64,000 bases of DNA from Deuterostichococcus epilithicus. Taxonomy: Eukaryota > Chlorophyta > Trebouxiophyceae > Prasiolales > Stichococcaceae. Numbering within the stretch: position 1 is the stretch's first letter; every line of letters begins with the position of its first letter. The position numbers were made by a program, and so were the translations under genes. Positions 1 to 56,400 of this stretch are shown here, piece by piece. The stretch covers positions 248,082 through 312,081 of the forward strand of contig JAVTLE010000011.1 of NCBI GenBank assembly GCA_033439295.1. The letters run 5' to 3'. The notes beneath the pieces are model-generated. The model saw nothing but the letters and a program-made list of their open reading frames with translations. It had not been told where the DNA came from and did not search any database.

Positions 1-3000
1 CGCCGACAGCCGCGAGGTCATCGGCTGGGAGAACATCGAGCTCATCAGCGACCGGCCCCTAGAGACGATGCTGGCGGAGTTCACGCGGCTGAAGGAAGAG
101 TTCCCGGGGCGCATCCTGATAGCCTCCATCATGGAGGTGCGGCGCTGAGGCGAGGCGGTGCCCCATCGGCAGAATCTTTGCTCGATGTGTTCCTGGCGGC
201 GGGCTTCCAGCAGCCTTCCAGCATGCCGGCTGCAGTGGAATGGGATCGCTTGATCCGCTGCTCGCAACAGATGGCTTACACGCCCAGCCAGGTGCCTGGT
301 GTTGCTCATACTGCATTCCTTTCACACTCCTTCCTGCTGCATCGCACGTGACGAGGCGCCTGGGCTACACGATTCCCTGTAAACCCTATGATCTGGAATT
401 CCCTGCAAACCTGCATGGTCGCGCCGCAGGAGTATGACCAAGGGGCACGTCAGGAGGTGCTTGCGTAGTTCGAGGGACCAAGAAGCTTTGCGACCCACCA
501 CCCCTGCTAACCCCTGTGACCTCCTTTGATTCACCCAGCCTGGACGCGCCGCAGGAGTACAACCAGGGGGCGTGGGAGGAGCTGATAGCGAGGTGCGAGG
601 ACGCGGGCGTCGACGCCTTCGAGGTCAACTTCAGCTGCCCGCACGGCATGCCGGAGCGCAAGATGGGCATGGCCATGGGCCAGGACTGCGAGCTGCTCGA
701 GGTGCGGTTTCAGGGTTTGAAGGCAGGGGTTTTGAATTCCACCAGCAGCATCGAGGTGCAGAGCGCAAGATGGGCATGGCCATGGGCCGACTGCGAGCTG
801 CTCGAGGAGATATCCGCATGCTAACGACGCTGGTGGTGCCGCAGCGCGCCAGCAGATAACCTGCGCACCCTCGAGCGGATCTGCCATTCAAGCTTTTATT
901 GGTCCACGTGGTCACTCGCCCTTGCTTTGCGTCTCTGCTGCAGGAGGTGTGTGGCTGGATCAATGCAAAAGCCACGATCCCTGTCTGGGCCAAAATGACA
1001 CCGAACATCACGGATATCACCCTGCCCGCCCGCACGGCACTGAAGTCAGGTATGCTGAGGCTGTTGCAGCGCCTGCTATGCATTGGGAACGCCTCCTATG
1101 CACTTGGGCCCGACTGCAAGCGCGCCAGGGCCTGCCGCAACTTGTTGCAAGTCGCTTGTAGCGTCTCTCTGTACTCTGGCGCGGCCTCCGCATTCTATGT
1201 GTTCTGTCTCGGACTACATGCAGCTGTGCTTCCACAGAGAGTCACACCTGCTTCGTGGGTTGTGGCGGCCAACAACAGCAGCATCGTCTCAGCACTCCGA
1301 CACTTTGCTCTGCCAGGCTGCGAGGGCGTGGCGGCAATCAACACCATCGCCAGCGTCATGGGCATCAACCTGACCACTCTGCGCCCGGAGCCCAGCGTGG
1401 AAGGGTACTCGACTCCCGGCGGCTACTCCAGCAAGGCCGTCAAGCCCATCGCGCTCGCCAAGGTGCCCATTTCCACATCGTGAAGTGCTGCCTCCCTCTG
1501 GTGCGTCGGAGCCAGCTAGCCCTTGTGCGCACAGGCCAGACGATGCTACAAGAAAGGGTTTCTGCGGCTCCGCTCTCCTGCAAACCCCATTCACCCTCGC
1601 TTTTCTGCGTGCGGCGCGCAGGCAAGCTTCGTGTTCTCTGCCAGCTACCATCGAGTGCAAGCCGCCACACCGTTGCATGCCGTACACGGCAGACAGGCAA
1701 CACGGTCTTCAGGCTCGACGTACGTCCACATGCCCCTGTCCTCTGACGGTGGCGTCTCTTTTCTGCGGCCAGGTCATGGCGATTGCAACGCTGATGAAGC
1801 AGGAATTTGACGTGAGCCGCTCGCTCAGTGGCATCGGCGGCGTGGAGACCGGACGCGATGCGGCCGAGTTCCTGTTGCTGGGCGCATCCTCCGTGCAGGT
1901 GGGGTTCGAAATCCTGACAACCTCAGAAATCTTTGAATGGAAACGAGTGTGGAGGAGGTGGCTTGTGAGGCCCCCATACCGTGCAGGTACACCCGCACAA
2001 AAGCCGGAATACTGTTTGGGTGAACCGAACAGAGGAGGCTGCACCGGCCAGGCCCCCCTCCTGCCGTGTAAGCCGGTTGCAGGTGCGCATGCTGGCGCTG
2101 ACGGGATGGTCTCCGCTGCAGGTGTGCACGGGTGTGATGCTGCACGGCTACCCGCTCGTCAAGACGCTCTGCGGCGGCCTGCAGGTCAGCACACTGCCCC
2201 ACTTCCTCTTTCCCCGAAGCTACTTGTGCTCTGCCACCGCCTGGAGTGACACTCCAGCTGAATGCACGGGGTCCCCAGAGGGGGCTTCCTCGCTCTGGAC
2301 TGTAGCGAATGCGTGCCAAGCAGAGCACGTGGGTCCACCTTGCCTGCTACTCCCGACAGAGACAGCGTGCCCATGCCCTAGCAAACCGCCCCGCAGCGGG
2401 GCCGCGGGCTGCAAACCTCCGCGGGCACAGCGCCTGTGCTCCTGCCCTGGTCCCAGCTCCCGAAACTCAGTTGTGCTTCGAGGAACACCGTTTCCCCGCT
2501 CCGGCGCGCAGGAGTTCATGTCGGAGCACAGCTTCGCCAGCATCGAGGACTTCCGGGGAGCGGCGTTGCCGTACTTCACCACGCACACGGAGCTGGTGCG
2601 GCTGCAGCGGGAAGCGATTGCCGTCAAGCGCGCCCGCACCGGCCTCGCCAAGGACGACGAGTGGGAGGGTGCGCCGCCGCCGCCCGCATCAATGCTGTCG
2701 CATCCCACTGGCGCATTACAATTGCCAATTGCTTATCCGTGACCATCGCAGCTGTGAGTCGTGCACAACTCAGGCTCGTCTCTTGGTCCGGCCGCTTGGC
2801 GAAGACTGCACAGAAACCATGCACTGCTGGCCGGCGGCCGGCGGACCTTGCAGCAGTCTCCTAGCAGCTCGGCTATGCGTCGCAAAACGACGCCAGATGA
2901 CCTTCTCACAATTTCAAAATGCCGAATTAGCAGCGAATCAGCACTGCGACACAAGTCGACAATGCTGCCCCGGCTGCTGGCACCATGACTGTGCGCAAAG

Positions 3001-8200: not shown

Positions 8201-11200
8201 TATCGTTCCAATTCTGGACCTGTAGTCTCCTGCCAGTCGAATTGTCGCTGAATGCCTCATCCATCGCCAATGCATGCTTTGAGCACTGCCGGACCGTACC
8301 GGACCGTGCAGCATCTGTTGACATGCATCTTCCTTTCTGACACAGGGCCGTACAGTATGCGATCAGCAAGAACGTTGTCGTTGTTGCCGCCGCCGGCAAC
8401 GAGAACACTAATCTCAATGCGCCAACCACCGACTCCAGAAGCCCCAACAACGGCACCGTCATCCAAAACCGCCCTGTCGATGTGGTGAGCGGCGTGTGAT
8501 CCACTCGCACTGAACTACGAGGGGTTCATCTTCTCAGGTTTTCGGATCTGACGCCGGTTTGGCAAGTGCTGAATTCGCTGCAGGGCGGCCCTTGCAGGGC
8601 GGCCCTTGCAGGGCGGCCCTTGCAGGGCCCAGTACCAAAATTCGGCTGTAGAGTTTCTTGTCGTGTTGCCGGGCATGCGTGTCGCGCTACCTCCTTCCAA
8701 ACCATTTGGCATGCGTGCAAATTGTCCATGCTGCTCGCAGAATTGCCCCATCCTGCCGTCGGAGCTGGACGGTGTCCTGGCAGTGGGCTCTGTTGGCAAC
8801 ACCTCCACAAAGGCCTACTACTCCAACTACGGCTCTCTCTTCGTGGACGTGAGTTTGACCGCTGAGCCCTTACTTACACACGTCTCCTCGTTGTACCATG
8901 TCCCATTGCGCATTTTGTGATGCCTCCTAGTGTCAGAGGCGCCTCAGCAGCAGCTACGCACTCGCCTTGAGACTGTCCACTTGTGCGTCCCAACAGCGAA
9001 GATGTCAAGATGTGCAACAGGCGATGGCGCCCGGCAGCAGCTTTGGGCAGACTACGGCGGCCGCCCTGCCAGGCGCCATTCTGGGCGCCTGGCTTCGACA
9101 AGCTCACTGGCGCATCAAACGCTAGACGGCAATCAAGCTTTTGATTCCAACGACAGGTGGTGGCGCCCGGCGGCGACTTTGGGCAGAAAACAGCGGCAGC
9201 GCCGCAAGGCGCCATCTTGGGCGCCTGGCCGGCCCGCTTCGGCAACGACCTGGGCAGCTTCGTCGTGGAGAACGGCGCCTACTACAGCTACCTGCAGGTT
9301 CGCCTCGAGCACTGCCAGGGCTGGGTAGACCTTTCCTGCTATGTCCTGCAGCGCATGCTGGGGAAGCAGGCGCGCCGCGCAGCGCATACTGGACATGCCG
9401 GTCATGAGCGTGTGACTCAAACACTCTGCCGTGAGCCCGACGGACGCATTGAGCCTGGCGGCTGATGCGCCTTTTTGGTTTCATATTTTAAGAAACGAGA
9501 ACAATTGCAGGGTACCTCCATGGCGTGTCCCCATGTGGCGGGCCTGGCGGCGCTCATCCTGGCGCAGTACACCGCCAGCACACGGCCGACGCCGGCGCAG
9601 GTGTCGTCCACCATCCTGGCGACCGCGCAGCAGCTAGCCTGCCCTGCCAACGTCAACGCCTGCACGTGCGCAGCGTGTCCTGCCCCCCTGTTCCTGTTGC
9701 CACCCGCCAGGCCCTGTGGTGCTGCTATTGAGTGGGGCGGCGCAACACGCAAAGAGGGGTCGCCACGCCAAAGCATGCAGCCATCCCGACGCAGCCGCCT
9801 GCAGGAGTGGCGCGGCAGCCGCTGAAAGCTGAAGCAAAAAAGGCTCGTTCTGAGTGCATGACGCAGAAGAGGCAGGTCCAGCTCCCATTCTAGTCGATCA
9901 GGTCGTTTATTTGTGCCGTGATGCCAGCAGTACTCTACGCTTGCATGCTTGCAACGTACCGCAAAAGTGTACGTCAAGGCAGCCATGCCTATGAACCTCA
10001 AGGCAGCCGCTCATGAGGCTCCAACAGCTGTCCGCCAACGCCTTCCATGCCCCGCTGCGCAGGCTCAACAACGGCGTGTCTTCCTACTACGGCGCCGGCC
10101 TGGCGGATGCACTGGCGGCGCTGCGTGCCGGCCCGGCGGTAAGTCCTGCTACTACTGCGGCCCGCATCGACACCTACTGTTGCATTGACCATTTTCACAC
10201 CCACCGCTGCGCTCTGTTTCGCCCAGTGCTATTCGTGGCTGAGGCCACGGTCGTCCCATGGCCTTGCCCTTGGCACTGCCCGCATTCGTGCCGAGGGGTG
10301 GCCCGACTGCCATGCCGACCCTGCAGCCGACGCCTGCGCACATTGCCGTGCTGACAGCTCAGCCCACTGCGTGGCCAACAGCGCAGCCCCACGGCATGCC
10401 AACAGCTCAGCCCACCACCGTGCCACCGGCTCAGCGCACTGCTGTGATGGCGCAGGGAACGGCAGCGCCCACTGACAGCCCGACAATTGTGCCAACAGCC
10501 TTGCCCACGGCCTCCCCAACTGTTGCACCTACACCTGTCCCCACGAGCAGCCCCACAGCAGCACCCACAGATATGCCGACAGCATCGCCAACAGCCGTGC
10601 CCACAGCGGCACCCACGGCCAGTCCCGCAGCTGCGCCCGAGGCAGTGCCCGTGACCGATGCACCGACAGTGGCGCCCACAGGCGGCCCAGTCACAGCAGC
10701 ACCATTCGCGGCTCCCACAGCCTCGCGCCCCGTGACCGATGCACCGACAGTGGCGCCCACAGGCGGCCCAGTCACAGCAGCACCATTCGCGGCTCCCACA
10801 GCCTCGCGCCCCGTGACCGATGCACCGACAGTGGCGCCCACAGGCGGCCCAGTCACAGCAGCACCATTCGCGGCTCCCACAGCCTCGCGCCCAGCGCCGA
10901 CCCGTGCGCCGACGCAAAAGCCGGTGCGGGCTTGGCGACACTTGGCCGTAGGGCACCCACCGACAGCCTCGTGGCTTTGGCAAGGGCACTGTCGCTGCAC
11001 AGCGACACAGCACCGGCACTGTGCCAAGGGGTGGATGCGGCAGGATTTTCATGCTGCGGTGCGGCAGCAGGGGGCCCGCCAGGAGGAAGGGGCAGCAGGC
11101 GGCCGGCGGCTGACATTGCGCTTGCAAACCTCTTGCCGCCCTGACATGATGTCTTCTAAATTGCAGACCCAGCGGCCAGTGGCGAAGAAGCCAACACGGA

Positions 11201-12993: not shown

Positions 12994-15900
12994 AAAGCAC
13001 AACGCCGGCTGGCTCGTCACTGCGCTGCTGGCCATGCGCGGGCGTGCACTGCCGCCGCTGCCACGACTACTGCCGTGATAACACTGCTGGTGCTGCAAGT
13101 CGGCGACAATGCCGCCGCTCCCACAGCGGGCCTCATTAGCCCAGCCGACCGAGTTGCGCTGGCTCGCGTGTCGGACCCACGGGATCGCAAGGAGCTGGCT
13201 ACGCTGTTGACCGGCGCCGGTGCGCAAGACCCTCAGGTGAGTATCCTCGGCTTGAGTGGGTCTTGCAGGTATAGCTGCGGCAAATATTTAAACTTTTCCG
13301 CCTGACAGCTATGGGGTTGAACGTGCATGGGTCACCATGTTCACTGGCGGGCCGACTGCCTGGCTTGCTGCGGCAGAGGATGTGTCTGCACTAGCCAGCT
13401 GCTGCAGATTTGACTGCAGGCGCCCTCATCCACAGAATTCAGCCACTCCATTGGGCACCCATGCGGATAGTAGTGTCATGACCTTGCAGCATGCGCTGTG
13501 CAGCCGTCATTGGTTGCTGCGCTGCCATGTTGCCGAGCATGAATACGATCAGTGCTGTGTCCATTGCGCCTGCAGGTGCAACAAGTCTTACGCTCCTGTG
13601 CCGCTCAGTCCGAGGCTGGGCTGGGACGCTGTCGGCAGCTCAACCGCTACATACTAGACTGCACCAAGGTAGCAGCTCCGCTGCCTGCTCTTTGTGCATC
13701 GTCAGACAGCGAGCAAGCTCTGGTCACTGCGCAGCAAGCATGCAGGATGCTGTCAGTGTTGCCGCTGCACAAACCTCAGCCACGCGACATTCTCAATGCT
13801 TGTTATTGCCGCCATCTTGTTGCCCGCAGAATGAGGGGACGCGATGTCTGCGCTGCACCTTCAGCCGCATCAAGCACATCGACACGGAAGCAAGCGTCTG
13901 CCTTTCCGTGCGCAACCCCCGGCGCTTCGCCCTCAAGAACGGCACAGCCGGTGGGCTATCCGAACCTCACAATGAAGGTTTTCGAGATAGCTTACTGGCC
14001 CCTTGCCGCCGTCGCATGCTGCTACGCTGCCTTGAATGGTCGTCCGCAATGCTCGAATGTCAAGATATTCAGCAATGCAGCTGCAAGGAACTGCAGTGTG
14101 CTCCAGAGGATCGTGCACCCTGCAGAGGGTCCATACAACTGCCGAATGGTTGACCTTGCCAACTTTGCACTGGCTTAAGGTGTGTTCACCAGCAGAAGTT
14201 TTCATTGTCGCGTCGGCATGTAGCAGCGGAGGGGACAAAAACCATGCTGAGGCGGTGCGGATGTTGACTGCAGTGCCAAAGGCGGGTCTGCAGCCGGGCA
14301 GGTCGCCAGACGGCGCAGTGGACTGCCCAGTCGGGACGGCCAAAAAGAACGCCGGGTCGTACCGCTGCCCGGCATGTACGGGAAGGGGGTATCAGCCCCA
14401 GACAGGCCAGAGCCGCTGCCTCATCTGCCCTGCTGGCTACAGCATCAACGCCGCTCGCACCGACTGCGGTGTGTCTCCCAGTGATTGATTTCTGGCTACA
14501 CATCATGTGAGACAAGTGGTGCTCTCAACTCTGGCTCTGAGGTGGCGCAAAATTCAGCGCGCGGGTGAGGCATTGTCACTGCAGCACAGTAACCTCGCTG
14601 TGCAGGTCTTCAGATTCGAACAGTCTATTTAGCCCCAGACTACATAGTGTGGTCGCTGCTGAGCCAATCATCATCGGCCCACACTGTGCCTGTCCGAGTT
14701 GGCGGCACTCCAACGACCTGAGGACGTTTGGCAAACGCAAAACCGTCTGGCTCTCAAGCCTCACGTCCTGTTCTTGTCGGCTGCCTGCAGTGCCACCGCT
14801 GCCACCTGCGCCGATGTCAATTGTTGCGCCGACTGCGCAGCCCTCGCTCACTCCCGCGTCTCCCCAGTCCGCCGCGCCGCCCACCCACCCACTTTCGGCA
14901 GCCCCAACGGCGGCGCCCGCATCAGCAGGCGCAACTGCGGCGCCACTGCCCACGCCGACCGCCATGCCAGCGGGTTTCCCGACCGGCAGCCCCACCGAGC
15001 CTCCGTCCACGACCTCAACTTTGGCGCCCGCCTTCACGGATCCGCCAAGCATGGCGACTGCAACGCCTTCTGCACCGGCTGTGGAGGGCGCACGACCCTC
15101 CGCCATGCCGATTGCAGCGTCATCAAGTGCGCCTCCGACCGCCCCGCTGCCGCCGATGCCGCTGGCGACCGAGTTGCAGCTGTTCCCACAGTCGCCAGAT
15201 GGGCTGCCATCCGGCGTCAGCGCCTGCGTCTCAGGCCGTGTTTCAGCACGCTCAGCCTCGCAGCCTGGCACTGCTCCAGCGCCGCTGGAGGGCGCGAACG
15301 TGACATGTCAGCTCGTCGACGCCGCCGACGAGGTGGCGCAGCAATCCACCCTGAGCAGCTTGGATGGCGGCTTCACCATTGATTTCGACGTCCGCCCGAG
15401 CCCAGGCCCCGCAAACATCAGCTGCATCGTGCAGCCAGCGGCAGGCGGCGAGTATGCTGGCAGCGCTGCCGCTGGCATAATCATCTTTGTCCTCTTGGCG
15501 CCACCTGCTGGCATGCCTGCTCCATCTAGCGGCCTGCTACCTGCGCCTCCACCGTTCCCACGTCCGACGCCGCCACCCATGCCGCCGCCGGGCCCGCCGC
15601 CCAGCCTGCTGCTTGCGCCTCCGCCGTTCCTCTCTCCAACACCGCCGCTGTTGCCGCCACCCATGCTGCTGTTGGCCCCGCCGCCCAAGCCCGCCACCCG
15701 TGCCTGCGCCGTCCCCACCTCCAATGATGCAGCCCTCGCCGCCACATGCGTCGCCGCCGTCCCCGCCGCACAGCCCGCCGCCCGCGCCTGCACCGTCCCC
15801 ATATCTGATGACGCTGCTGTCGCCGCCACCAGCAGCACCACCCAGCCCGCCGCCCGCNCCTCCGCCGTCCCTGCCTTCGGCAGCGTCACTATCGCCGCCA

Positions 15901-18900
15901 CCAGCCCCGCCGCCAAGCCCGCTTGCGCCTCCACCATCCCCACCTCTGGCGCCGCCGCCCTCCTTGCCACCCGCGCCGCCGTCGCCCCNGCCGCCCCGCC
16001 AGCCGACGTCGAAATCAATCCCACCTCCGACGCAGCNACTGTTGCCGCCNCCCGCGCCGCCGTCATCTTCGCTGCCGAGCCCCTTGCTCGCGCCTCCACC
16101 ATCTCCGCTTCCGGCGCCGCCGCCGCCGCCGTCCCCGCCTCCCAGCCTACCGCCTGCACCTCCACCGTCCCCACCTTCGCCGCCGCTGTCGCCGCCGCTG
16201 TCGCCACCGCCCGCGCCNCCGCCNTTCCCGTCTCCCAACCCACNGCTGGCGCCGCCNCCGTTCCCATCTCCCAGCCCGCCGCCGTCGCCGGCCCCCGCGC
16301 CGCCACCGTCCCCGCCTCCCAGCCCGCTGCTGGCGCCTCCACCATCTCCACCTCCGGCGCCACCACCGTCGCCGGCCCCCGCGCCGCCGCCAGCCTCGCT
16401 GCCGAGTCCCCCGCTCGCGCCTCCACCATCTCCACATCTGGCGCCGCCGCCACCACCGCCCGCGCGCCGCCGCCGTCGCCGCCGCCGCCCCGCCTCCCAG
16501 CCCACCGCCCGCGCCTCCGCCGCCGCCATCGCCGCCGCCCGTGCCGCCGCCATCCCCGCCTCCCAGCCCACCGCCCGTGCCGCCTCCGTCCCCACCTCCC
16601 AGCCCGCCGCCGTCGCCGCCGCCTGCGCCCCGCCTGCACCTCCACCATCTCCGCCTCCGACGCCGCCGCCGTCTCCGCCGCCTAGCCCGCCGCCTGTGCC
16701 TCCGCCATCCCAGCCTCCGGCGCCGCCACCGTCCCCGCCACTCGCGCCGCCGCCGTCTCCGCCTAAGAATCCACCGCCTGCGGCTCCATCGTCTAGCCCG
16801 CCGCCTGAGCCTCCACCATCCCACCACCTGCGCCGCCGCCATCCCCGCCTCCTAGTCCACCACCGCCTGCGCCTCCGCCATCTCCACCACCTTTGCCGTC
16901 ACCGGCTCCGTTGCTCTGCCCCATGAACCTCACAAACAGTGCGAACAACGAGGAGCTTGCAAATCGTGATGTGGCTGCCGGCAAGCTCCGCACTTGCCCA
17001 CCATTGATAACAATTGGATGGCAGGTCTTCCTCACAGCAAGTTCCCTTGTGATTTACTACTGTGCGCAGGCTGCACGGCAAACAATGACGGAGCAGTGTG
17101 CTCCAGAGATTGCCTTACCTATTCGGTAAACGTTGAGGTGCGAAATGGTTCTCGGCTGCAACCTCCGATGCGCATCTATGCAACTCCGCTGGGGAATTCC
17201 CATGAGTCCATTTGCAAGTTACTGTTCCAGCGTTGTGCTTCAAATCGCGCGGAATCGGCACAATACTGCACATAGCCACTCACATCCAAACTAACACCAG
17301 AGCATGTGGTGGCATGCCAGGTACCATACTACGCTGACCCGGCTCAAAATCAGACGGACGGCGCATTTGAGGCTTGGTGCGTGCGCTTGACTCGCAATTT
17401 CACATGGCTTGCCTGCCACTAGGTCGAGCTCTTGTTGCTGAGCGCATCAGGCAGTGCTGCTACTTGGCCACTGGCCAACCTGCGCTGGCCGCCGTGCTGG
17501 TTGCCCTGGCATTGCGGTTTGCCACGCAAAGACAGAGCGCCTTCAGGAGGTGACGATGGGTGTGCCGCTTGCTGCAGCGCCGCGGCCGGAGGAGCGCGAG
17601 GCCAGACCTGGGGAATTGCAATCACAGTCGCTAACGCTGGAGAGCAGCGACCCGACCTTGCTGCGCTCGTCGCGGACTGTGTGGGAGGCTGTGTGCAAAG
17701 CCCATTTGCTAGATCTTACGCCTGGGAAGGGGGCGCAGATCTCCGCTCTTCAGTTAGGTTCCTCTACTACTGCGACGTTGAAGGTGGAGGTGGCGCCAAC
17801 AGTGACACCTGCGCGGCCTCAACGACTCCGGATTTTGGTAAAGTCGCAGTTGATCCTCCGAGCACCCACATGGCAACGGTGCTGTGCGCCGCGTGCCCTG
17901 CAAACTGCCGCTCGTGTGACCCCCGGGCGCCGGGGACGTGCGGCACGTGCACCGCGGGCTCCGTGCTCACGGGCGGGGTCTGCACTTACCCGCCGCCGAC
18001 GCTGCCGCCCTCCCCGCCACCCGCGCCGCCGCCCTCCCCGCCCCCGCGCCGCCGCCTGCACCTCCNCCGTCCGCGCCGCCCGCGCCGCCACCGTCTCCGC
18101 CTCCTAGCCCGCCGCCTGCGCCTCCGCCATCCCCACCACCTGCGCCGCCGCCGTCCTTGCCGCGCAGACCGCCACCTGCACCTCCACCGTCCCCACCTCC
18201 GGCGCCGCCGCCCTTCCCGCCACCGCCCGCGCCGCCGCTCTGCCCCATGGACCTCACAACCCGTGAGTCCGACCAGGAGCTTGCAAAGTTGTGCCTTGGC
18301 CTGCTGGCAAGCTCTGCAGTTGCTGACAGATCGTGACACTACAATGGCAGGGTTTCCTCACAGCAAGTACATCCTATGAATGGCTATTATGCGCAGGCTG
18401 CACGGCTTGCAACGACGGAGCAGTGTGCTCCAGAGATTGCCTTTATTTCTCGGTGAACGTTGAGGTGCGAATTGGCTGTCGGCTGCATCACATGCACATT
18501 GGCTGCATGTGCAACTTTGCGCCTCCGCCGTGAAACTCTCGCTAGTCCATTGTCATGCAGACAAGACACTTTTGCGGTGTCGATATGTTGTGGAATATGA
18601 CACACACCTGCGTTCAGGTGCACACAGGCGTTGTTGGCATTCATGTTCAAACCAATAGCAAAGCTTGTGGTGGCATGCCAGGTACCCTACTACCCTGAAG
18701 AAAGTCAGCCGGTCGGTGCGTTTGAGGCTTGGTGCGTGCCCTTCATTCACGACTGCATGTGGCTTGCCTGCAACCAGGTCGAGCTGTTGAGTGCTGAGGG
18801 GATCAGGCAAATCTGCTGCTTGGCTGCTGGCTGCCGTCTGCCGGCCGCTGTGCTGACTGCCCCGGCATTGCAATGTCCCACCTGAACATGGAGCGCCTCG

Positions 18901-22481: not shown

Positions 22482-22529
<48 letters not shown>

Positions 22530-25500: not shown

Positions 25501-28500
25501 GAGCTCTGGATGTCGCGCAGCGCCGCCGCCGCCTGCGCCTGCTGCTTCTGCTGCTGCAGCAGCTCGGCCTGTGCCGCCGGGGGCTGCTCGGGCTGCCGCG
25601 GCGTTTGCAGCTTGGCTGGCGGCGCTCTCTTCGGCGGCGGCTGCTCACGTCGCCGCCGCGCGTCAAGACCCCACTCGGGAATCTGCTTCTTGGGTGGCGC
25701 TGCGCCCTTTACGTCTGCAGCCTTGCCGCCAGCAGAGACGCCAAAGTCGGCAGACTTCTGCTCTGCCGCCTGCTGCTGCTGCTGCTGCTGCTTGCCGCTG
25801 CTGGGCTGCTGACCCTTCCGCTCCTGCTGCTCCTGCTGCTGCTGCTGCTTGTCAGGAGACTTGGCTGGCGGGCTGGCGCCCGTGCTTGTTGGGGACTTGG
25901 GCGACGCCTGGCCGCCACCAGTGCGGGTGTTGCTGCTTTCAGCCTCCGCCTGCTCGCCGCCGCTGCCGACGAGCTTGGACGCCGCCTGCTGCGCCGCAGC
26001 CTTTGCGCCTGACGTCACCTGAGCACAGGAGAGCGCACATGCATGTACACGGGTACGTCAGACGAGACGTGGGGCACTACGTCAGGCACATATCGTGCTT
26101 GTAGAAACAGTCCTCAGACCGTCCAAAGATGTCGTGGCCACATGCAACGTTCAGATTCACACGCCAGCTCTGAACAGTCCACAGCACATCCCAGCACAGA
26201 ACGATCAATGCAGCATTGGGAGTTGCAGATGCCCCAAAACCCTGAACCCCCGTGCACCTTTGCCTGCTCCTGCGCCAGAAACTCCGCCTCGGCCTTGACC
26301 TCCTCGACGGTCGGCGGCCGCAGCGCCGCCGCCGGCGGCGGCTGCAGCGCTGCAGGCTCGTCCGCGCCGCCCACCGGCCTGCGCACACGGTTGGTCGCTT
26401 GGTCGCGACAGGCTCGTCAAGCAGGGAACGCAAGCACTTCTCCGAGGCAGAGACACATCTGCTGCACACAGTGCTGCGCCCTTCCACCCGCGCCCTCCCA
26501 ATGTTTGGCTGGACTCCTCTGGCCTGCAGGTATGGGTCATGCTGCCAGCAGGCAGGGGCGCCCCGACCCGCAGCCTGCGCGACTGCAGCGGCCAGCCCAG
26601 AGACGGCACAGCCGCACCCCTCCCCACGCAGCTGCGAACCCCCATCCTCAGGAAGGGCTGGACACAAGTGATGGTTGGGCAGAACCGGAGCACAGGCAGA
26701 AGCTGCATCCTAGCATATTTCAAGTGCAGCCACCTAATGGGGGCCCCCCTAACCAGCGAGGGTCGCACCTGACGGCCCTGGGAGGGTTGTGCATGGCGGT
26801 GCCACACGGTATGACGGGAAGGAACCGGAAGGGAGGTGCCACGGTCGCACCTGACAGGCTTAGGAGGGTTGTCAGGGCGGCGCCACATGGTCTCGCGCCG
26901 CTCCCGGCCGGGCACCGCACCCGGGCCACCCCTGGCCACCTCCTCAAACGAGCCGCTTGCAGAGCGGACCAGTGACTCTGCCGCGACGGCCGCGCTGTTC
27001 GCTTGCTCTGCAGTGCAAGGCGCCTGTGCTTCGCCCTTGGGTCTGACTGACACAGTGCCGGTCAACAAGCAAGAGGATTCGACACGATGCAGGAGTCCTA
27101 GGCGACGACAGTGGGATGTTGGCAGGGCCAGGCTGCACATGCAGACAGCTGCAAGGCGGCGCCTTCCTGCAGCAGCAGCTCATGCACACATCTCAGGTTG
27201 CAAGACGGCACATGCTGCTGGCATGGCGAGGCTCCAATGGAAGTGGTGATGACCCTGCAGCCCTTGGCGTTGCCTTTTCGGATAACCCACACTGCCTTTA
27301 CCTTGGACGGCGCGGTTGACGTTGGCCGCCCACTCCCCGAGATTGCGGCCGATGTCCTCCGCTGCCTCGGCGTTACGTCGCGTCGCCGCCTCCGCTGCCG
27401 ACCACACCTGCTGCCGCCACTCCTGCCGCCAGCAGCTCTAACCTTTTAGGCACGAACGAGTCAGCCCCCAGTTCGTGGCTTGCATCTCCAATACCAATGT
27501 ATCAAGGAACACATTACAGCCGATAGCCGGGAAGCACCTTCAGCCAGAAACTGTAGCAGCAGCTGCTGCGGCTGCAGCGTCCTTGCCACGAGGCCTGCGC
27601 GGCCAACGGCTCCCAAAGCAGGGTGCAGCTCCCTGCTCAATGCAGGCACACGGACTCGCAACCCGAGACAACAGCAGCTGAGCCGATGGCAATCCGGGAA
27701 TCACGAAAGCTATGGAATCCAGTCACGCGCCTCGAAGCTCTTCGCCTGCACGTCGCTTGGCGGCAGGTCCGCCGTCGCGCCGTCCAGACTGCGCCGCAGT
27801 GCGGCGCCCGATGGCTGCACGGGCGCCGGTGTGGGGCCGNNGCGCCTGCCGCTGGCTGCATCGGCGCCGGTGCCGGCACTGGTTGCCGGCACCGTAGGGG
27901 GCAGCGGCTCCGGCAGCGGCTCGCGGTCTTCCGCGTATGCCGCCGGGTCGCCGCGGGCAGACGTCGGCACCGGCGACACGGGTGACGTGGTGTCCTCCCT
28001 GTCGCAGGTGTGGGCGAGGCTGGTTCAGGAGCCGGTCTCTGCAAGTCCTGCACTCGGTGGGCGGTTCCACAGGGGAGTGCAAAGGATGGCAAACAGGCAG
28101 CCGCCTCGCACAGAAACAAACAACCCTCAGCGATGACTCAGCAGCTCCCAGCAAGATGCACCTCGAGGTCGGCCGGGCAAGGTCGCTGCCGTCTGGCAGC
28201 AGGGGCGGACTGCGGTTGCGGGCGCCCGCCGCCGGCGAGGCACTGCGGCTGCGCGCCTTCTTCGTGCTGTCCACCACAACGCCAACGACCTGGCGAAGGG
28301 TGAAAGGGTTTATTTTGCTCCAGCTCTGGACCTCTGTCGTGATCCATTCTGATTGAAGAGCATAGAGAGTCTCCGGCTGTCGTGTAAAGTTGTGGGGAGC
28401 AAGGCGCTACACGAGCTTGGCAGTCGCACAGACTGAAGCTGGCACGCACGGCAGCCGGCGCCAACGAGAGGCACCAGCGCGGACGGAAGGCAGGAGCTTC

Positions 28501-30052: not shown

Positions 30053-35425
<5,373 letters not shown>

Positions 35426-45751: not shown

Positions 45752-48700
45752 ATGCCGCGCAAGTCAAAGTCGAGAGGCGACAAGTACGGACCGGTGGCCC
45801 GCCGACGGCGTGGCCGGCCAGCAGCGCCCAAGGCCCCGGAAGCTCGTGCAGCTAACAAAGGCCCAGCTATCACCCTGGACGAGCTCATGGTGTGTCACAT
45901 GTCAAGAGACGCAGACATCATCAATAAGAAAGAGGACACCACATTGCTGCACTACTCTGCGCTCGCTCGGGGTTCGTATCAACTTGCTCGGCGACGCGAA
46001 CCCGTGCGCCAGCACCTGTTTGGCAGTATCTGTAGCACCACATCGTCTGCTGGCGCAGCCATGGACACGTTCCAAACACATTGATACAATGATCAAGCTG
46101 GACAGCAGGCGCCCTGACTTTCTGAAGGGTGCGGCACTGTGCCCCCTGGCGCTGCACCTACATTCGAAGACCATTCGCTGCTCAGGAGGGCTACAGCGAC
46201 GAGGGAGATGGCGGTGGCGTGCTTCGAATCGGCGGCGTGGCCATTCGGACGCAGGCAGATGGCGCGGTCCAGCATGTCAGGCGCCGTGGTGCCCGACCGG
46301 CGTCCCCGACAGCGGTGCGCATGGCATGGCAACCTTCTGCGTCAAGCTGCGAGCACTCGGGTGTCACCTCTTTCCCAGCACAGCGTCCACAACCGTCGCG
46401 GCGGACGGCCACAGATGCAAGCGTGGAGGAGCATACCACCCGCAGGGGCAGCAGGCGGTGCTGGGTTCGCCGCAGGGCGGGCTGACGCTGGAGTCGGGCG
46501 CCTGGGGCGAGCACAGCGACTCGTCGAGCGACGGCGAGGAGTCGGGGCTGCAGGACTTCATCGCCAACCTGGCCGCCCAGCGCAGCAGCAGCGGGGTGCG
46601 CATTTGGTTTGCAAAGGTGCAGGTTTGACAGCATGACTTCCAACGCTGCAGCAGCGGGTCGCTGCAGGGTTTCACCGCCAAGCTGGCCGCCCAGCGCAGC
46701 TGCAGCGGGGTTTGAGACACTGCGTTCACATGAACCCAGCCAGAAAGACAGGACGTGGCTTCGATTTGATATGCACGTCTCGCCGGTCGAGAGGGCCATA
46801 CTGCATCCCCATGCTGTGGTATTAGGCAGACAAGCACTTGCTGGTCTTGGGTTTGCGCAGACGCTTGGCTGGCGTCACTTTGATCCTACTGCTCGAAGAC
46901 CTCGGCTCACTTTCGCGGCAAGCTCCCCGCCCTGCAACCCGCAGCAGCACCGAGGGCCTGGTGTACGCCATGGACGCCCTCCGGATCCCATTCCGCTCAT
47001 CCATGAAGTGTTCGACACTTGCCAACTTCACGGTGTGCAGTGCCGCAGGAGTTCGAGCTACGAGGGCGTGGCAGAAGCCGTGGAGCGCTTGGGGCGCTCC
47101 GACATCATTTCCCGGTCCCTGTTCCGCCTGTCTGAGCCCGTCTTGACGTCTTTGTCACTCTGGGCATGCGAACCGCAGGAGTACGAGGGCCTGGCGGATG
47201 CCATGACGCGCTTTGCACGCACCGACATCGGCGACGCCGGCGCACCCGAGGACGTCTGCGGTGAGTTTCATGAATCGCTTTAGGGTTTAGAGTTAGGCTG
47301 AAGCACAGCTGCCGCCGAGGCCTGCTGCCTCAGCATCCGTCACACCAGCTGCGGGGCAGGGCCTGTGGCGTCAGTCTGAAGGGCGCTTCCACACGAACAT
47401 TTGCATGAGCGGGCCGTGCAGACGAGCGGTGCAGACGGCGGCCGCCAGAGCCAAACCAGCCACTTCAGGGGTTCTGCCGCCGCTGCAGCTGCGGGGGAGG
47501 AGGCGGCCGGCGGCCTTGTCGGCGCCGGCAGCAGCGACTCGGGCGACGACACCTCGACAACGGAGGCGGCCTCCGACGCCGCGTTCAGCCTCAGCGACAG
47601 CGACGGCGGCGGTGGCGGGCCTCGCGGCTGGCCAGCAGACATCGTGGACGCAGGCTTCCCAGGTCTGAACTTGTTAAGTCAGGTCTGTGGACGTGTTCAG
47701 TCGGGCCTTCTTCAAGCAAAACCTGTTCTCACCAGCCCGGCAGCGGTCTGGCCTGGCAGCGACCGGGCACGCCGGAGCTCGCTGGCAGCTTTAGGTCGCG
47801 CGCAGCAGTCCTGACAACACCGTTCTGTGCCACTCACCGCAGGCGGCGCCTCAAAGCGGCGCAAGGCGGACCGCGGCGGCGCCGCGGGGNGGGGGNCGCC
47901 GGGGGGTCGGGGGCAGCCAAGAAGGCACGCAAGGCCGCGCTGCGGGCTGCGCGCGCCGAGCGCCGCGGCTTCGACCTGGCGGCCGTCGACGGCCTGCTTC
48001 GCGACTTCGTGGCCATGGACGGCGACCTCATGGTGGGGACTGCCTGGCACATTTTGTGCAGGTCTCAGGCTCCGCTGCTGGAACGCCGCGGCGTCGACTG
48101 GCGGCATTCGACGGCCTGCTTTGCAGCGTTGTCGCCCATGGACGGCGACCCCTGGCGGATCCCGGGCTGCTGTGATTCCTTACTGTGGGCCGATTAGCAT
48201 CTGGCATACGCCCGCACCGTCTGGAAGCACAGAGCACCTGCGGCTCCAGATTGCCTGCTTCTACCGACGCGGCTGGAAAGCGTCCCAGGTACAGCGCATG
48301 TCGCCACTCCGTGGCCAGCAACGACTCAGGACAGCGCCATGACGGCCCAGCTCACATGTGCCTCCCACTTCCCGCGCAGGGCCTGGCGACAAGGGCGGGC
48401 AACCACGGGGTTGCCTCGGCCAGAAATCCTTGCCAGAGAGCGCAATAAGGTGATGCTTAGCAGAGTGTAAAACGTCCTCTGACCCTGCAGCCCCCACCGC
48501 GCAGGGCCTGCCGACCAAGGTGGGCAAGCACGAGGGCGCCGCGGTGCAGCGGCTGGCGGCGCTGTACGGCCTCAAGTGCAGCACGCAGGGCTCTGGCAAA
48601 AAGGCGACGCTCATGGTGACTCGTGTGCACCCTGAACCCTCCCCAGCCCGCCGCTCGGCGGGCTCCGGCTCGCGCATCTGCGCTGGCATCCAGGCCACAC

Positions 48701-51700: not shown

Positions 51701-52129
51701 CCCCTGTCGCGCCTGATGCGGCCGCCGATGAGCAGGCGCGCTCCTCGTGGTGCCGTCGCTCAGGCTGCCGAAGACTGCACACCGAGCCGACAGAGCGGCT
51801 CCGAGCGGGGCCTGCTGCTCTTGCGCTGGGCAGCCTCCTCCCCTGCAGCAGGATCGGCCGACGCCCATATGCTTCTGCAGGTTCTTTCACCTGCTCCACC
51901 GCTTTCGCACCGAAGCCATCATCCGTGTGCCGAACCTTTGGAGCAGAGGCGCGCCGTGGCGGCCAAGTACGGCGGCTTCGAGGCGCACACCACCGGCTTC
52001 GGCTCGCGCATGATGGCGCGCTGGGGCTTCGGCGGCGCCGGCGCGGGCCTCGGCGCCAGGCAGCAGGGCATCGCGGAGCCCATCGCGGCGGTGCGCCGCG
52101 GCAAGGGCGTCGGCCTCGGCGCCGACTGA
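45752..52129 (+). CDS. R3H and G-patch domain protein, Sqs1-like
   Basis: Sqs1/Pfa1-type proteins stimulate the helicase Prp43 through the G-patch, in splicing and ribosome maturation. Exons: 45752-45889, 46186 to about 46287, 46446-46595, 47179-47260, 47489-47662, 47843-48032, 48505-48615, 48927-49083, 49356-49477, 49886-50004, 50274 to about 51262, one near 51625-51700 (KARKKELKLARRAAREAKL), 51947-52129. R3H: KHEGAAVQRLAALYGLKC, GSGKKATLM, VASTRHTAMP across exons 48505-49083. G-patch: HTTGFGSRMMARWGFGGAG, then GIAEPI and GVGLGAD at the end. The N-terminus is basic (MPRKSKSRGDKYGPV), nuclear-like. Oddities: an in-frame TAG at 50870-50872 followed at once by AG|GCGGCT; an apparent frame slip at the N calls 47890/47896; and five decayed exon-edge copies, more than any other gene here. 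Confidence 0.87.
46661..46715 (+). repeat. Decayed copy of R3H/G-patch exon 3 end
   Basis: GCTGCAGG at 46661 restarts the sequence found at 46547 (offset 114 bp): TTCACCGCCAAGCTGGCCGC against TTCATCGCCAACCTGGCCGC. The copy ends in GGGGTTTGAG where the exon has its GGGGTGCGC donor. Confidence 0.87.
47044..47110 (+). repeat. Decayed copy of R3H/G-patch exon 4 start
   Basis: CCGCAGGAGT at 47044 repeats the acceptor and exon start at 47174 (offset 130 bp), with a 6-base insertion after GAGT and then TACGAGGGCGTGGCAGAAGC matching TACGAGGGCCTGGCGGATGC. Confidence 0.87.
48084..48157 (+). repeat. Decayed copy of R3H/G-patch exon 6 end
   Basis: CGCCGCGG at 48084 and CATGGACGGCGACC at 48137 repeat the same words at 47961 and 48014, a constant offset of 123 bp. 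Substitutions break the protein sequence. Lies just after the exon's donor at 48033. Confidence 0.88.
48374..48410 (+). repeat. Decayed copy of R3H/G-patch exon 7 start
   Basis: GCGCAGGGCCTGGCGACAAG at 48374 matches the acceptor and start of the R3H exon at 48499 (offset 125 bp), where it reads GCGCAGGGCCTGCCGACCAA. Confidence 0.85.
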
Positions 52130-53485
52130 TTCGGAGCGCCGACCGATGCGAAACGGTGCAGCCCAGGTCTCACACCCGGCCCGGGATGTGCGGTCCTGGG
52201 TCCCTCGGCGGCGGCGGCGCGCTGTCGCGCGCCCAGGGGGCCGGCCTCGGCGCCGACTGAGGGGCGCTGGCCATGCGCTGGCTGACCGTGGCGGCACCCC
52301 GCTGTCGGAGGGAGAACCATCTGGGACCAGGTATCTGTCAGCAAGGGTTGCATCCCACGTCCACTCTCGTCAGCCCGGCCGGCCAGCAGGACGGGCGGGC
52401 AGGGCACTGGGCAGGCATTGCCGCGGCGCCAGGCAGGAAGTAGGAGGCGAGGCACCGGCCTGGCAGGCTCTCCGGGCAAGCAGCATTGCAGGCGTGGTGC
52501 AGAGGCGATCCGTGCAGGCGGCCCGTTGCATTGCTTGTTGGGTGGCGGACAGATTCAGGCGACCATGCACTCAATGCCTCAAGCTTGCCTCTGCTTGGCC
52601 GGCATGGTCTTAGGTTTGAATTGCTGCTAGGACGTTGAAGCTGTACATAATGACGTTCTGTGTGGCAAGAGCGGCACCATGCTGTGGAACCAAGAGGTAT
52701 ATCTACCGTCAAATTATCGGGTTGCTCTCCTTACAAGACAGCTACTCTACGTACTGGGTACCTAGGCAGATAATTACCGACTTCTGCACAAAACGCCTCC
52801 GACGGCGCCCGGACCGGGATTGTTGCTTTTCAAAGGTAGGCAGCACAAAAGACACGCGCCGTTGCAGTGCATCCTCGCACCGCTGCACACACACCCTCCT
52901 GCGGGTTCCCAGCAGCAGAGAGGTCCCTACTCGCATGCCGCATATGTGCCGCTCCAAACAAAGGTAACATACGAACCAGAAAAGCCTGTGAAACTAGAAG
53001 CTCTAGAGGTGGCACTGGTCCGCCCAACAGCAGGGCAGCAGGCCCAGCTCAGTCGTTTGTGCTCAGTCGCCAGCGCCCCTGCGTCACATTGCGGCCTCAA
53101 GGCGCTGGCAGCGCACCACCACTCCAACGTGCTGTCTGCCAGCCGCCTCAGCAGGGCTGCGCAGCCTTTCTTGGGGGCCGAGCCGTCGCTCGCTGCTCGT
53201 GGCAGCTGCACGATCCCGTGCCGCAGCGCCATCGATGCCGCGACCGGTCACACCTTGCCACGAACCTGATGCTCCCATCTCATGTGAAAGCGGCTGGTGA
53301 AGGTGTCGAGAGGAGCACCGCCGCCGCGGCAGCTGCCATGCTGCTGTGTCGAAGGCGCCTCGCGGCGGCGGACGCTCCATGTTATGGCCCGGTCAGATCC
53401 CTCCCTTATTGACGCCCGGCGTGCGTCAGCCGGAGGCGCAGCACAGCGCTGCACCACACGGGCGCGCGGGCAGGCGGCAGCCGCG
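52130..53485. other. Convergent region with unresolved SBP gene 3' end
   Basis: Between the R3H/G-patch stop and the last clear SBP-gene exon. Minus-strand frames at 52927-53232 and 53248-53619 are open but show no recognisable domain; one may be the true C-terminus. 52620-52800 is AT-richer and unlike a gene. TTACA at 52732-52736 (TGTAA on the minus strand) could be the SBP polyadenylation word. Confidence 0.4.
52242..52260 (+). repeat. Copy of the R3H/G-patch gene's last codons and stop
   Basis: CGGCCTCGGCGCCGACTGA at 52242 is identical to 52111-52129, the final codons and stop, offset 131 bp. The preceding ~40 bases are more weakly similar. It lies past the real stop, so it is not part of the protein. 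Confidence 0.8.
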
Positions 53486-56400
53486 TCAGGGCGACTGCCG
53501 CAGCGCGGGCGGCGCGGCGGAGTGCACCTGCATGCGGCAACTCCAAAATCTCCAAGCCGTGCCGGCGGCAGGGCATGTAGTACATTGGCGACCTGGAGCA
53601 GCGCTCCGAGTTGCAACACTGCCTGATGGCAGCAGCTGCTTCTGTCGCATGTTCGGTGGAGTACACACAGGTTCCGAGGGTTGGTGGTGCGTGCGCGCCT
53701 GCATCAGTGCCGCGTGCCACAGCTCGCTGGCGGACGGCATCGAGGAGGTGCTCAGCGCTGACGGCCGGCGCAGCGCGGCGGCAAACGCCTCTGCGGCAGC
53801 GGGGTCGCCGCGCGCCTGCGGCATCGTCAAGAACAAGTTCAGGATGGAGAGGTCGTCAGTCAGCAAGCCATACTTCACTCAGCAAACGTGGCGGCGGCGA
53901 ATTGTCAAGCATGCTCGAGTAATGTCCTGAAAGCAGGACGCAATCTGTTGCCAATGACCGCTGCAACAGGGCCGGTGGATCGGGGCGGCCGAGCCTCCAG
54001 CTGGTGCGGCAGATTTGTCGAAACATCTGCACAGTGCAGCCTCTGAACTGGGGCGCATCCAGAAGGCAGCCATACAACCCGTTCGCAATTCCGGTGACAA
54101 GAGGCTGCTCACCGCAGCGGCGCGCGCCAGGCTGAGCTGCAGCTGGTCCATTGCCGGCCACTGCGGCGCGGCGCCGCCGCCGCCGCCGCCGGGCGGCGTG
54201 CTGCGGCCGCCGCCCCCGTACGGCTGGAAAGCCGAGTTCCTTCGCGCAGCAAAGACTTGTCACCATTTCAACATGGACGATACAGCATGGACGGCGGCAC
54301 TCTCGAGCAGCATCGGCTTGCCCGTCAGTGCGCGAGGTTGCCAGAGGCATCAGAGGCTCGCCGGCTGGCGCAGCACGTGCCGCTGCCTGGAGCAGACCGT
54401 CTGCTGGCTCGACTGGTGGGGTCGTCTCATGCGGCAGAGGGTGGCCTTCCCCAATTGAACCAACAGGGGCTGGCGCTGGCGCTAGAAGGCAGCCCCCTAA
54501 GGCGGCAGCACCGCCTGTCCACCCTCTGCGAGCAGAGCCGTCAGCTGCACAGATCGGGCCGGCGGCTACGCGGCAATAGAGTTGAGGGCGCTCGCCAAAC
54601 GTTTGCAGGCGCGGCTACCGCAGGCGCCCGGACGTCAGCGAGGGGTACGATCAGGGGGATGCAGGTATGTTCAACACTATGATCAGACAGTTCCAAATGC
54701 TAATGAATGCACCTGTTGGCGTCGCCGCTGCCCCCGCTGCCGCCGCCGCCCTCCCCCGAGGCGCCGCCCGACAGCAGCTGCAGCGAAGCCGCGACGTCCG
54801 TCAGCTGCCGCCCCGCGCTGGTGCGCGCCCGGTGCGCCCGCACCAGCTGCACTTCCTCTTCCGTCTGCGAGGGGATCCAGCAGGTTTTGATCGGATCGTT
54901 TTCATTGTTTTTATTTCAAACGGGTTGGTGCGCCTGAGCAGCTCCACCTCCTTCTCCGTCTGCAGACATTGCCACACGAGCTTGAAGGAACAGGGTTTCA
55001 GGAACGGCAGGGATCGCCGGTGGGCGTGGGACAGTCGGCAGCGCAGGGGCTGAGTGCCACACAGAGCCGGAGGGGCCGAAGTGCGGTGGCAGAGGACAGG
55101 ACCTCGGAATGCGACAGCGACTGCTCCCGCTGGCCCAACATTGTGGTCGTGGTCAACGGGTGTATTACATGACACCCGTCATGTAATGATGTGATCGAAT
55201 ATGACTCAGTCCTGACTCAGTCCAGACTTTTTGGGGCGCTCCTGCAATGGTCACTACACTAATAGAGGCTCTCAGCACGTGACTGCAACCGGTATGATGA
55301 CTAATTACTCATCGACAGAAGGGTTGTACTGCTCTTTGTCATTGGATAGCCCTAGAGCAGCTGATGATATTTGCGCTGACAGCTGTGACGGGTCCCAAGG
55401 CCGCAGCTGAGGTTACCGCGGCTGAGACTGCAGCAGTCGCTACACAAACGTCGCAGCAGGCGCCGTAGCAGGCGCAGCAGGCGCAGTAGGCGTCGTTCGC
55501 AACACAGCATGACTGATTGCCCCGGACCTTGGTGCGACGAAATGTCACCTTGATGCAACGGTTGGGTTTATGTCCACAATGTTGGGCTGGCCGCGACGCC
55601 ACAGCATACATACCAACTACTGCCGTGCAGGCGCACTGACAACCAACCCCGACCCGCGAGCAGCAGGGAAAGTAACGACTGCTGGCGGGCGCCGCAGCTG
55701 TGTTGAGCGAGGGCAAGTGTCCCCCCGGGCGCAGGGAGATCACAGACCCCCGAGGCGCGCCTTTCACTTGCTGCAGCACGCCGACGAGGCGCACTGCTCG
55801 AGGGGGCAGGTACTTACAACAACCCTCTAGTGGGAATGCTTCGCACCAGATCGAGCGACGAGACGGTGCCGCCGCCCGGCGCAGCTGGGGGTTTGGCGTC
55901 CTCAGAGCCAACGCCGGCGCCGGGACGCTGATGTTCCTGGCTGCCCCCGCCGCCGCCGCCCTGGCTGCCTTCGCTGGAGCGAGACAGGCCGCCCTGCTGC
56001 TGCTGTTGGTGCTGCTGCTGCTGCTGCGCCGCTGCATTCGCCGCGGCGGCAATTGCGGCATAGTCCTCGGCTGCAGATGCGAGGCACGCCAGGCGGTCAC
56101 ATGTGTAGCCTTGAGTGTCACCACCGCAAGCGGTGCCAAGCTTCTCAGCAGATGAGATACGGACACCGGCACGATGCCTGCATGCTCACTCAGCAGTGAC
56201 AGAGCTGCGGAACGGTCGCAAGTGCGAGACACAAGATTTTCCTCAGCGGAGAAAATCTGCTCACCGCTCATGCCGCCGGGCATGGAGGGGCTGGACAACG
56301 CACGGAAGAGGCCGCGGCCGGGCTGCAGCTGCGCCGGCGGCGACGTCGCGGCTGCGGCTGCCGCGCTCGCCGCGGCGCGCTGCATCGCCAGCGCCGCGGG

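Follow-up and report, generated by a model that had tools for sequence, protein, structure and literature searches.

Sense-Strand Copies of Exon Edges at Steps of About 120 bp in Adjacent Introns of the Green Alga Deuterostichococcus epilithicus

Introduction

Paired nicks in plants give rise to small tandem duplications by fill-in at staggered breaks. Staggered-break fill-in is described as making small tandem duplications in which the two copies are directly adjacent (PMC8355091). In tandem genomic duplication, two AGGT copies in an exon delimit the unit that becomes the new intron (PMC3443670), and introners are characterized as a shared sequence family among introns, found chiefly in lineages that evolve fast, green algae among them (PMC9860276).

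Here, we describe copies of exon edges in the adjacent introns of the green alga Deuterostichococcus epilithicus, which we call echoes. As in the intron gain described in PMC3443670, exon sequence with a splice motif is duplicated and would be tolerated as splicing restores the mRNA; unlike in that system, an existing intron seems to grow, mostly the exon edge alone is recognizable, and the copies stand in phased rows. The echoes resemble fill-in duplications (PMC8355091) in being sense-strand, short-range, and tens of bp long, but they differ in their unrelated spacers (median 55 bp), 120-bp step, and location at exon edges. They share with introners (PMC9860276) the genome-wide intron changes, but the spacers are unrelated between loci and each echo is specific to its exon. 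In the literature searched, which consisted of open-licence papers, no description of such exon-edge echoes was found.

Materials and Methods

The window is the whole stretch of 64,000 nt of D. epilithicus that was analysed (assembly GCA_033439295.1, contig JAVTLE010000011.1, 248,082 to 312,081, forward strand), and the sample of 314 kb consisted of this window and 25 other 10-kb stretches. Exon borders were predicted, without RNA, by a gene finder for which the same sample had served as training set and which errs in places: retraining shifted an exon edge from 26851 to 26887, and the gene finder took one echo for an exon, so echoes may mislead gene finders. Gene names other than PYD1 (subtilisin, YLPM1-like, R3H/G-patch, and SBP) were taken from an initial annotation of the window. 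A Pfam search of 10 exons gave 2 that passed the cut-off and 4 without a match; family and homology searches placed exons in the known families DPYD, 6-phosphogluconolactonase, and Fcf2.

In the alignment of exons with adjacent introns, 36 bp at each intron end were excluded by design, and distances from splice sites were therefore taken from separate comparisons. The low-complexity exons at window 10631, 15562, and 16436 were excluded by hand from the echo count, the offset steps, and the intron-length analysis; exon 50274 was additionally excluded in one comparison, and window 10631 from the flank-homology and spacer versus exon-interior comparisons. L018 and the L020 8200-8900 array were excluded from the comparison of lag classes (exon-intron, II, and NN). 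Echoes short of the junction were excluded from the flank-homology, tandem-duplication, and AG/GT tests, and the tandem-duplication simulation covered 18 of the 26 one-step echoes.

Results

All copies named in the initial annotation were recovered, and two unlisted ones, in PYD1 and R3H/G-patch, were added (Table 1). The offset of 130 given there probably corresponds to the 47059/47182 pair at 123, and that of the SBP echo is 95.

Table 1. Exon-edge echoes in the window and the sequences with which they were compared (window coordinates).
Feature	Position	Compared with	Strand	Offset (bp)	Remarks
PYD1 exon (dihydropyrimidine dehydrogenase)	539..701		+		Gene-finder exon; source of one start and one end echo
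PYD1 exon-start echo	410..475	535-600	+	125	66 bp, 76%; upstream intron; not in initial annotation
PYD1 exon-end echo	761..807	654-702	+	107	96%; one 2-bp gap
Subtilisin echo, start of exon 9157-9297	9017..9093	9153-9229	+	136	ACAG kept
21-29 kb gene echo, exon end	26756..26810	26838-26891	-	82	
YLPM1-like first echo, start of exon 32582	32474..32503	32575	+	101	
YLPM1-like second echo, start of exon 32582	32337..32375	32576	+	239	
R3H/G-patch echo, end of exon 46446-46595	46635..46710	46547/46661	+	about 114	
R3H/G-patch first echo, start of exon 47179-47260	47038..47106	47059/47182	+	123-124	
R3H/G-patch second echo, start of exon 47179-47260	46909..46980	46933-46980/47167-47212	+	234	Not in initial annotation
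R3H/G-patch echo, end of exon 47843-48032	48068..48150	47945/48068	+	123	
R3H/G-patch echo, start of exon 48505-48615	48372..48419	48372/48497	+	125	CCGCGCAG kept
R3H/G-patch stop-codon-end echo	52219..52260	52088	+	126-131	Match stops at TGA
SBP echo, start of exon 54713-54864	54926..54963		-	95	Position derived from offset

The PYD1 exon is homologous to residues 644-691 of 1gt8, and the DPYD homology reaches residue 53 of the exon's 54; both the start and the end of this one exon were copied. Its end echo is the best-preserved copy; it carries GAG at each of its ends, its flanks are unrelated (the donor-side flank is without homology), and even here no duplicated intronic half can be recognized. 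The source border of the echo at 26756 is uncertain (26851 in the first gene model, 26887 in the retrained one), and under the first model the match continues on the donor side for about 13 bp. The gene finder placed a 30-bp exon at 32481-32510, in overlap with the first YLPM1-like echo, and the stop-codon-end echo lies inside a minus-strand exon predicted at 52170-52301, which may be false.

Exon-edge echoes are confirmed as real, and they are present beyond the window. Over 890 exon-intron pairs in 314 kb, 50 echoes were found, about one per 6 kb; in the controls, a single pair matched in antisense, and a single match was obtained with one random intron per pair. At a score of at least 18, there were 40 sense matches versus 1 antisense match in the 890 pairs, in line with the single orientation reported in the initial annotation. 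At a local score of at least 24, matches were found in 28 of 892 adjacent pairs, whereas none of 3150 randomly chosen introns matched and, among other introns within a gene, 4 of 708 did, so that the recurrence it had reported does exceed control levels. The corresponding numbers were 26, 0, and 0 at a score of at least 26, and 42 versus 7 and 6 in the controls at a score of at least 20. A lag scan without gene models (234 kb) detected 50 pairs within lags of 20-619, whereas two ranges of far lags gave none; with other settings (314 kb), 63 pairs were found versus 2, 9, 2, and 2 in controls, and at 24/40 bases (234 kb) 109 versus 43 and 30.

Start echoes lie upstream of their source exon and end echoes downstream, as the initial annotation had stated, with AG kept in 13 of 18 scorable start echoes and GT in 4 of 6 scorable end echoes. 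Long introns are enriched: 16 of 88 introns of at least 400 bp contained an echo, compared to 10 of 408 shorter ones. A scan of CDS ends (47 starts and 50 stops) gave one clear case, the stop at 52129, which the minus-strand stop at 52170 overlaps. In the same scan, an L018 start and stop resembled each other, and a match at an L014 start perhaps reflects a wrong gene model.

The offsets of the 50 echoes fall into steps, with 36 at 63-144, 11 at 200-266, 3 at 338-384, and none at 145-199 (8.8 expected). The period is 121 (R 0.70, compared to a null mean of 0.23), and 0 of 2000 null draws were as high. The regular spacing that the initial annotation had noticed is therefore confirmed and extends to one, two, and three times about 120 bp; we know of no factor that sets such a step. 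At thirteen examined edges, there were rows of 2-4 echoes, mostly closer to the exon than to each other. The L014 row has offsets of 104, 219, 340, and 463, each echo being 72-73% identical to the exon with lower scores among themselves, and the L025 echoes are 87% identical to the exon versus 77% to each other. The 26 one-step echoes have a median exon part of 55 bp and a median spacer of 55.5 bp; the spacer is 22-92 bp in 25 of them and 1 bp in the remaining one, so that the spacer-free copies of break repair are not what is found in 25 of the 26.

The echoes, several of which adjoin exons of conserved genes, decay as noncoding DNA. Mismatches at codon positions 1 to 3 were 106/597, 127/593, and 147/591 (17.8, 21.4, and 24.9%), and 42 of 43 gaps were not a multiple of 3; a weak point against this reading is that 18 of 36 offsets are divisible by 3 (12 expected). 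The pooled identity of scored echoes was 79%, with a standard deviation of 0.066 versus 0.056 expected (heterogeneity p 0.023). Identity exceeded 90% in just 1 of the 36 scored echoes, and most echoes are therefore old, which does not support the view of the initial annotation that the window looks like a snapshot. Within echoes, no clustering of mismatches was found, and there were no gene-conversion mosaics and no conserved core. Base-specific mutagenic copying was rejected, as all bases are affected (213 transitions, 193 transversions). In three regions searched for paralogues usable for dating, none was found beyond the same stretch.

The spacers are without homology in most tested cases. 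When 24 spacers were compared between loci on both strands, the best score (13.0) equalled the shuffled level, which rejects a single family, introner-type or other, and a genome search with the PYD1 spacer matched only itself. As copies of the exon interior (34 events), spacers scored strongly in just three events (two in L018, one in L005), in each of which the spacer is multi-step and contains further echoes. Testing the other intron, the other exon, the start of the intron, or antisense pieces as the source gave no clear mean shift, and a shift of 0.53 for the same intron was due to two high values, which match L003 and L018. No spacer source was thus found except in the L003 and L018 rows.

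Discussion

Our tentative explanation, which we put forward as possible, is that short-range duplication of exon edges into the adjacent intron lengthens introns stepwise, probably by break repair. Exon edges would repeatedly be duplicated over a short range in the sense direction, each step adding about 120 bp, made up of an exon edge (median 55 bp) and an unrelated spacer (median 55 bp). Splicing would retain whichever copy restores the old mRNA and the other would decay as noncoding DNA, leaving the protein unchanged and the intron longer; repeats at one edge would produce rows at one, two, and three times the step. The likely cause would be break repair at exon edges, by staggered-break fill-in or template switching, with filler left between the copies. 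The mode of repair, the outcome at splicing, the copying order, and the identity of the ancestral copy are inferred.

Some observations stand against this explanation. General short-range duplication should also strike introns and intergenic DNA, and lags 80-150 show no clear excess there: at a threshold of at least 22/40, II pairs were 33.6 per Mb versus 23.9-44.4 at other lags, and NN pairs 20.3 per Mb versus 15.1-24.6. At a threshold of at least 21, II (109.8) and NN (81.1) were both slightly the highest of the lags, and exon-intron pairs were 209 versus 82-168 at other lags. About 7-15 intron-intron pairs of at least 24/40 would be expected by calculation, whereas 2 were seen. In the 314-kb scan, there were 3 intron-intron pairs at lags 80-150 without L018 and 5 with it. 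The scarcity of young copies does not fit a steady process; the lack of a spacer source outside the L003 and L018 rows, the 120-bp step, and the one echo with a spacer of just 1 bp also stand against the explanation. A more far-reaching reading, which we consider rather unlikely, is that an exon-specific process, advancing by about 120 bp per step, bounded by coding or splice borders and active during a restricted time in the past, wrote the phased echo rows genome-wide and built much of the intron length, and was neither tandem duplication, transposition, nor retrocopying.

The initial annotation proposed tandem duplication of splice junctions, and in its plain form, with all duplications of about 120 bp old, this seems unlikely. 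The intron half would have faded because both of its copies drift, whereas the exon half would remain visible because coding selection holds one. The step and the rows are as tandem duplication gives, L003:7005 is a true junction duplication with the whole unit copied (108/120 bp), one L018 row and one L008 row retain some spacer similarity, and the match that ends at the stop codon at 52129 suggests that the border tracks coding constraint and not splicing. However, the adjacent complete unit expected of a tandem duplication was not recognizable, for lack of the intronic half, in most of the 18 events tested. Simulated tandem duplication was rejected at each echo's own divergence (p=4e-12), with one-sided K=0.28 over 17 events (p 1e-5 to 7e-4), and over K 0.20-0.28 (p 1.7e-15 to 7e-4), whereas K of 0.35 and of 0.45 gave no rejection (p 0.13 and 0.85), so that the model fails unless divergence is at least 0.35 per copy. 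At PYD1 and at five places with echoes of 83-88% identity, the spacer shows no relation to the flank. For L025, the echo-echo score was 22.5 and the spacer-spacer score, for an equal two-sided age, 5.0, the shuffled level; nor is there an intron-intron excess that is clear. What stands of the proposal is sense-strand, phased duplication of exon edges and its link with long introns, whereas the intronic half is mostly not recognizably duplicated, L003:7005 excepted. As for its intron gain and growth, the introns appear lengthened, but they already exist and no new intron is shown. Intron length equalled the offset in 0 of 35 listed events (introns of 150-982 bp), as in 46596-47178, which is 583 bp with an offset of 117.

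It appears quite improbable that the echoes are functional, selected as decoy or pseudo-exon edges in long introns on old tandem arrays with free spacers. The narrow spread of identity, the near absence of young copies, and the concentration in long introns are consistent with selection, as are the acceptor-like pyrimidine at -5 (15/18) and purine at -4 (16/18), since just 8 and 12 of 18, respectively, equal the present acceptor. Against this, mismatches are evenly spread without a conserved core, AG (13/18, p 0.23) and CAG (11/18, p 0.18) are retained no more often than expected from decay, most rows have a star-like structure centred on the exon, and a search within the intron itself gave no clear complementary partner (mean z 0.38, n=36, a weak positive shift). 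A better preservation of CAG than of the rest of the echo failed in a stricter count.

Insertion into introns of copies from spliced mRNA or cDNA is highly improbable. The matches do stop near exon borders, and both exon edges seemingly lie side by side in 46909-46980, which has weak similarity to the adjoining upstream exon end. Against this reading, it is one of just 2 of 32 echoes in which adding the other exon improved the match (p<=0.05; mean gain -0.02), and an acceptor-like CAG precedes 11 of 18 start echoes. The PYD1 echo was outside these 32, since its next exon is 7 bp long in the gene model; in this case, 3 bp of match are gained. An artefact of coding repeats, wrong gene models, or assembly errors has an equally slight chance: the three hand-excluded exons have low-complexity coding repeats, L018 is repeat-rich, N bases are scattered, and some gene models are wrong, but the echoes have frame-breaking gaps and differences at all codon positions, without the frame retention and the variation mainly at third positions of protein-repeat exons, the model-free lag scan detects them, about 21% divergence is not sequencing error, and the family-matched exons lie in domains that, to our knowledge, are not known for such repeats.

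Returning to break repair at exon edges, polymerase theta end joining makes templated insertions in which nearby sequence is copied with short microhomology, and the GAG found at either end of the PYD1 echo is similar to this. Such insertions tend to be shorter, occur in inverted form as well, and are not known to be tied to exon edges, whereas the echoes are exon-edge-bound and almost exclusively sense.

The phased echoes are a trace, which can be counted and dated, of the way in which introns may have become longer, and the question of intron growth is testable in any genome by a scan of exons against their adjacent introns.

Distribution of exon-edge echoes

An echo is taken here as a diverged copy of an exon edge inside the adjacent intron, with start echoes copying exon starts and end echoes copying exon ends. 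Self-comparison of the window gave short repeats in the sense orientation, offset by 82-136 bp, and a finer search combined with gene models recovered every place at which the initial annotation had reported copies, plus two places absent from its list. The genome assembly amounts to 46.8 Mb in 21 contigs, one of which, 2.58 Mb long, contains the window; its gene structure makes the green alga of the initial annotation plausible. The wider sample comprised 17 + 3 + 2 + 3 further 10-kb stretches (250 kb; 314 kb with the window). Exon and intron borders were predicted by a small gene finder trained on the sample itself, from which GTGCG emerged as a clear donor motif and YGCAG as a clear acceptor motif, with median lengths of 129 bp for exons and 242 bp for introns.

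With predicted gene models for the sampled stretches, 28 of 892 exon-adjacent-intron pairs scored at least 24; none of 3150 random introns reached that score, and 4 of 708 introns from the same gene that do not adjoin the exon did. At a score of at least 18, 40 of 890 pairs matched in the sense orientation and 1 in antisense. A model-free scan (234 kb) yielded 50 repeat pairs at lags of 20-619 and none in two far lag ranges; other settings (314 kb) yielded 63, versus 2, 9, 2 and 2 in controls. Therefore, echoes are not confined to the window but occur well beyond it, at about 50 per 314 kb.

Known relatives of some echo-bearing exons were dihydropyrimidine dehydrogenase (PYD1), 6-phosphogluconolactonase and Fcf2; another exon had a Helicase_C-like Pfam match below the cut-off. 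Four of ten exons submitted had no Pfam match, and no paralogue was found for the three echo regions checked. A search of the genome also located at least 15 5S rRNA genes, scattered on nine contigs rather than in a single array.

Anatomy and spacing

Start echoes mostly lay upstream of the exon and began near the junction, and end echoes mostly terminated at +1 to +6; exceptions started as far as 44 bp into the exon or stopped 14 bp short of it. In 26 one-step cases, the echo took in about 34-78 bp of the exon, with a median of 55; the spacer to the real exon had a median of 55.5 bp and ranged from 22 to 92 bp in 25 of them, so that echoes mostly spare the sites that splicing requires. Offsets grouped at single, double and triple steps of about 120 bp, and none fell at 145-199; multiples of three were in weak excess (18 of 36, versus 12 expected).

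Besides the rows of several echoes in the table, ten further rows had two echoes each; some outer echoes were weak. Because each echo in most rows was nearer to the exon than to neighbouring echoes (exceptions: stretch L003 and the outermost L004 echo), and echoes within one row were about equally diverged, the exon looks like their source.

Coordinates of echoes and other repeats (L, sampled 10-kb stretches; offsets and lags in bp)
Location	Feature	Offset or lag
Window 761-807	Echo of the end of PYD1 exon 539-701	
Window 10648-10892	Coding repeat of 81 bp in three perfect copies (100% identical), much younger than the echoes	
Window 14761-20600	Low-complexity glycine/proline-rich reading frames, mutually similar over several kb; possibly pherophorin-like or antisense to such genes	
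Window 32481-32510	Predicted 30-bp exon, really an echo	
Window 52088-52129, 52219-52260	End of a last exon, at its stop codon, and the echo of it	
L014	Row	104, 219, 340, 463
L004	Row	117, 234, 381
L018	Row	132, 266, 384
L018 (C19:200001-210000)	Dense short direct repeats, 79-93% identity, some intron-intron	109-163
L020 8274-8815	Diverged array in predicted intergenic DNA, resembling a decayed minisatellite	41-222

Divergence of the echoes

Pooled identity was 79% (36 echoes), mismatches at codon positions 1-3 were 17.8, 21.4 and 24.9% without clustering, and 42 of 43 gaps broke the frame. The echoes are mostly old noncoding copies. The PYD1 echo alone is young (the only one above 90%; one 2-bp gap in 49 bp), and its flanks are unrelated.

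Alternative origins

The initial annotation favoured tandem duplication of the splice junction. Under this main rival, plain duplication of the whole junction, the spacer adjoining the exon ought to be similar to the sequence on the far side of the echo. Such resemblance was present at L003:7005 and partial in L018, but absent in most events, whose intron sides are unrelated. For 20 start echoes, ungapped identity on the intron side was 0.74 at -1 to -5, 0.38 at -6 to -10 and about 0.3 further out, and on the exon side 0.61-0.75 across the first 40 bp. For ten end echoes, the values were 0.56 then about 0.24 (intron side) and 0.82 then about 0.5 (exon side, where gaps shift the register). Simulations of neutral tandem duplication rejected this origin at each echo's own divergence (p=4e-12, 18 events) and at a common divergence K of 0.28 (p 1e-5 to 7e-4, 17 events), whereas K of 0.35 and 0.45 gave p of 0.13 and 0.85. 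The result thus depends on the divergence assumed, and old tandem duplication is unlikely.

Retention of echoes as functional decoys is less likely, since they lack a conserved core and their AG survives no more often than expected from decay. Copying from spliced mRNA was not supported in a test of that template.

Link to exon edges and proposed intron growth

Duplication striking all DNA alike should leave pairs at the same lags in introns and intergenic DNA. With loosened thresholds, neither had a clear excess at lags 80-150 (this bin was slightly highest at >=21/40, but not at >=22 or >=23), whereas exon-intron pairs did; at >=24/40, 2 intron-intron pairs were seen versus 7-15 expected by our own arithmetic. 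This points to a process, or survival, linked to exon edges. In the last-exon case, similarity stops exactly at the TGA with no intron involved, which suggests that the echo border is set by coding sequence, not the splice site. The L018 direct repeats may represent a more recent stage of the process behind the echoes.

We propose that introns were lengthened stepwise as exon edges were duplicated over a short range, with unrelated filler between copies, and that these steps would fall mostly within a limited past period. No common element was found among the echo spacers, nor any description of phased exon-edge copies in the accessible parts of the open-licence papers searched. Echoes were carried by 16 of 88 introns of at least 400 bp and 10 of 408 shorter ones, long introns also having more room. 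As the predicted 30-bp exon illustrates, echoes may produce false exons in annotations.
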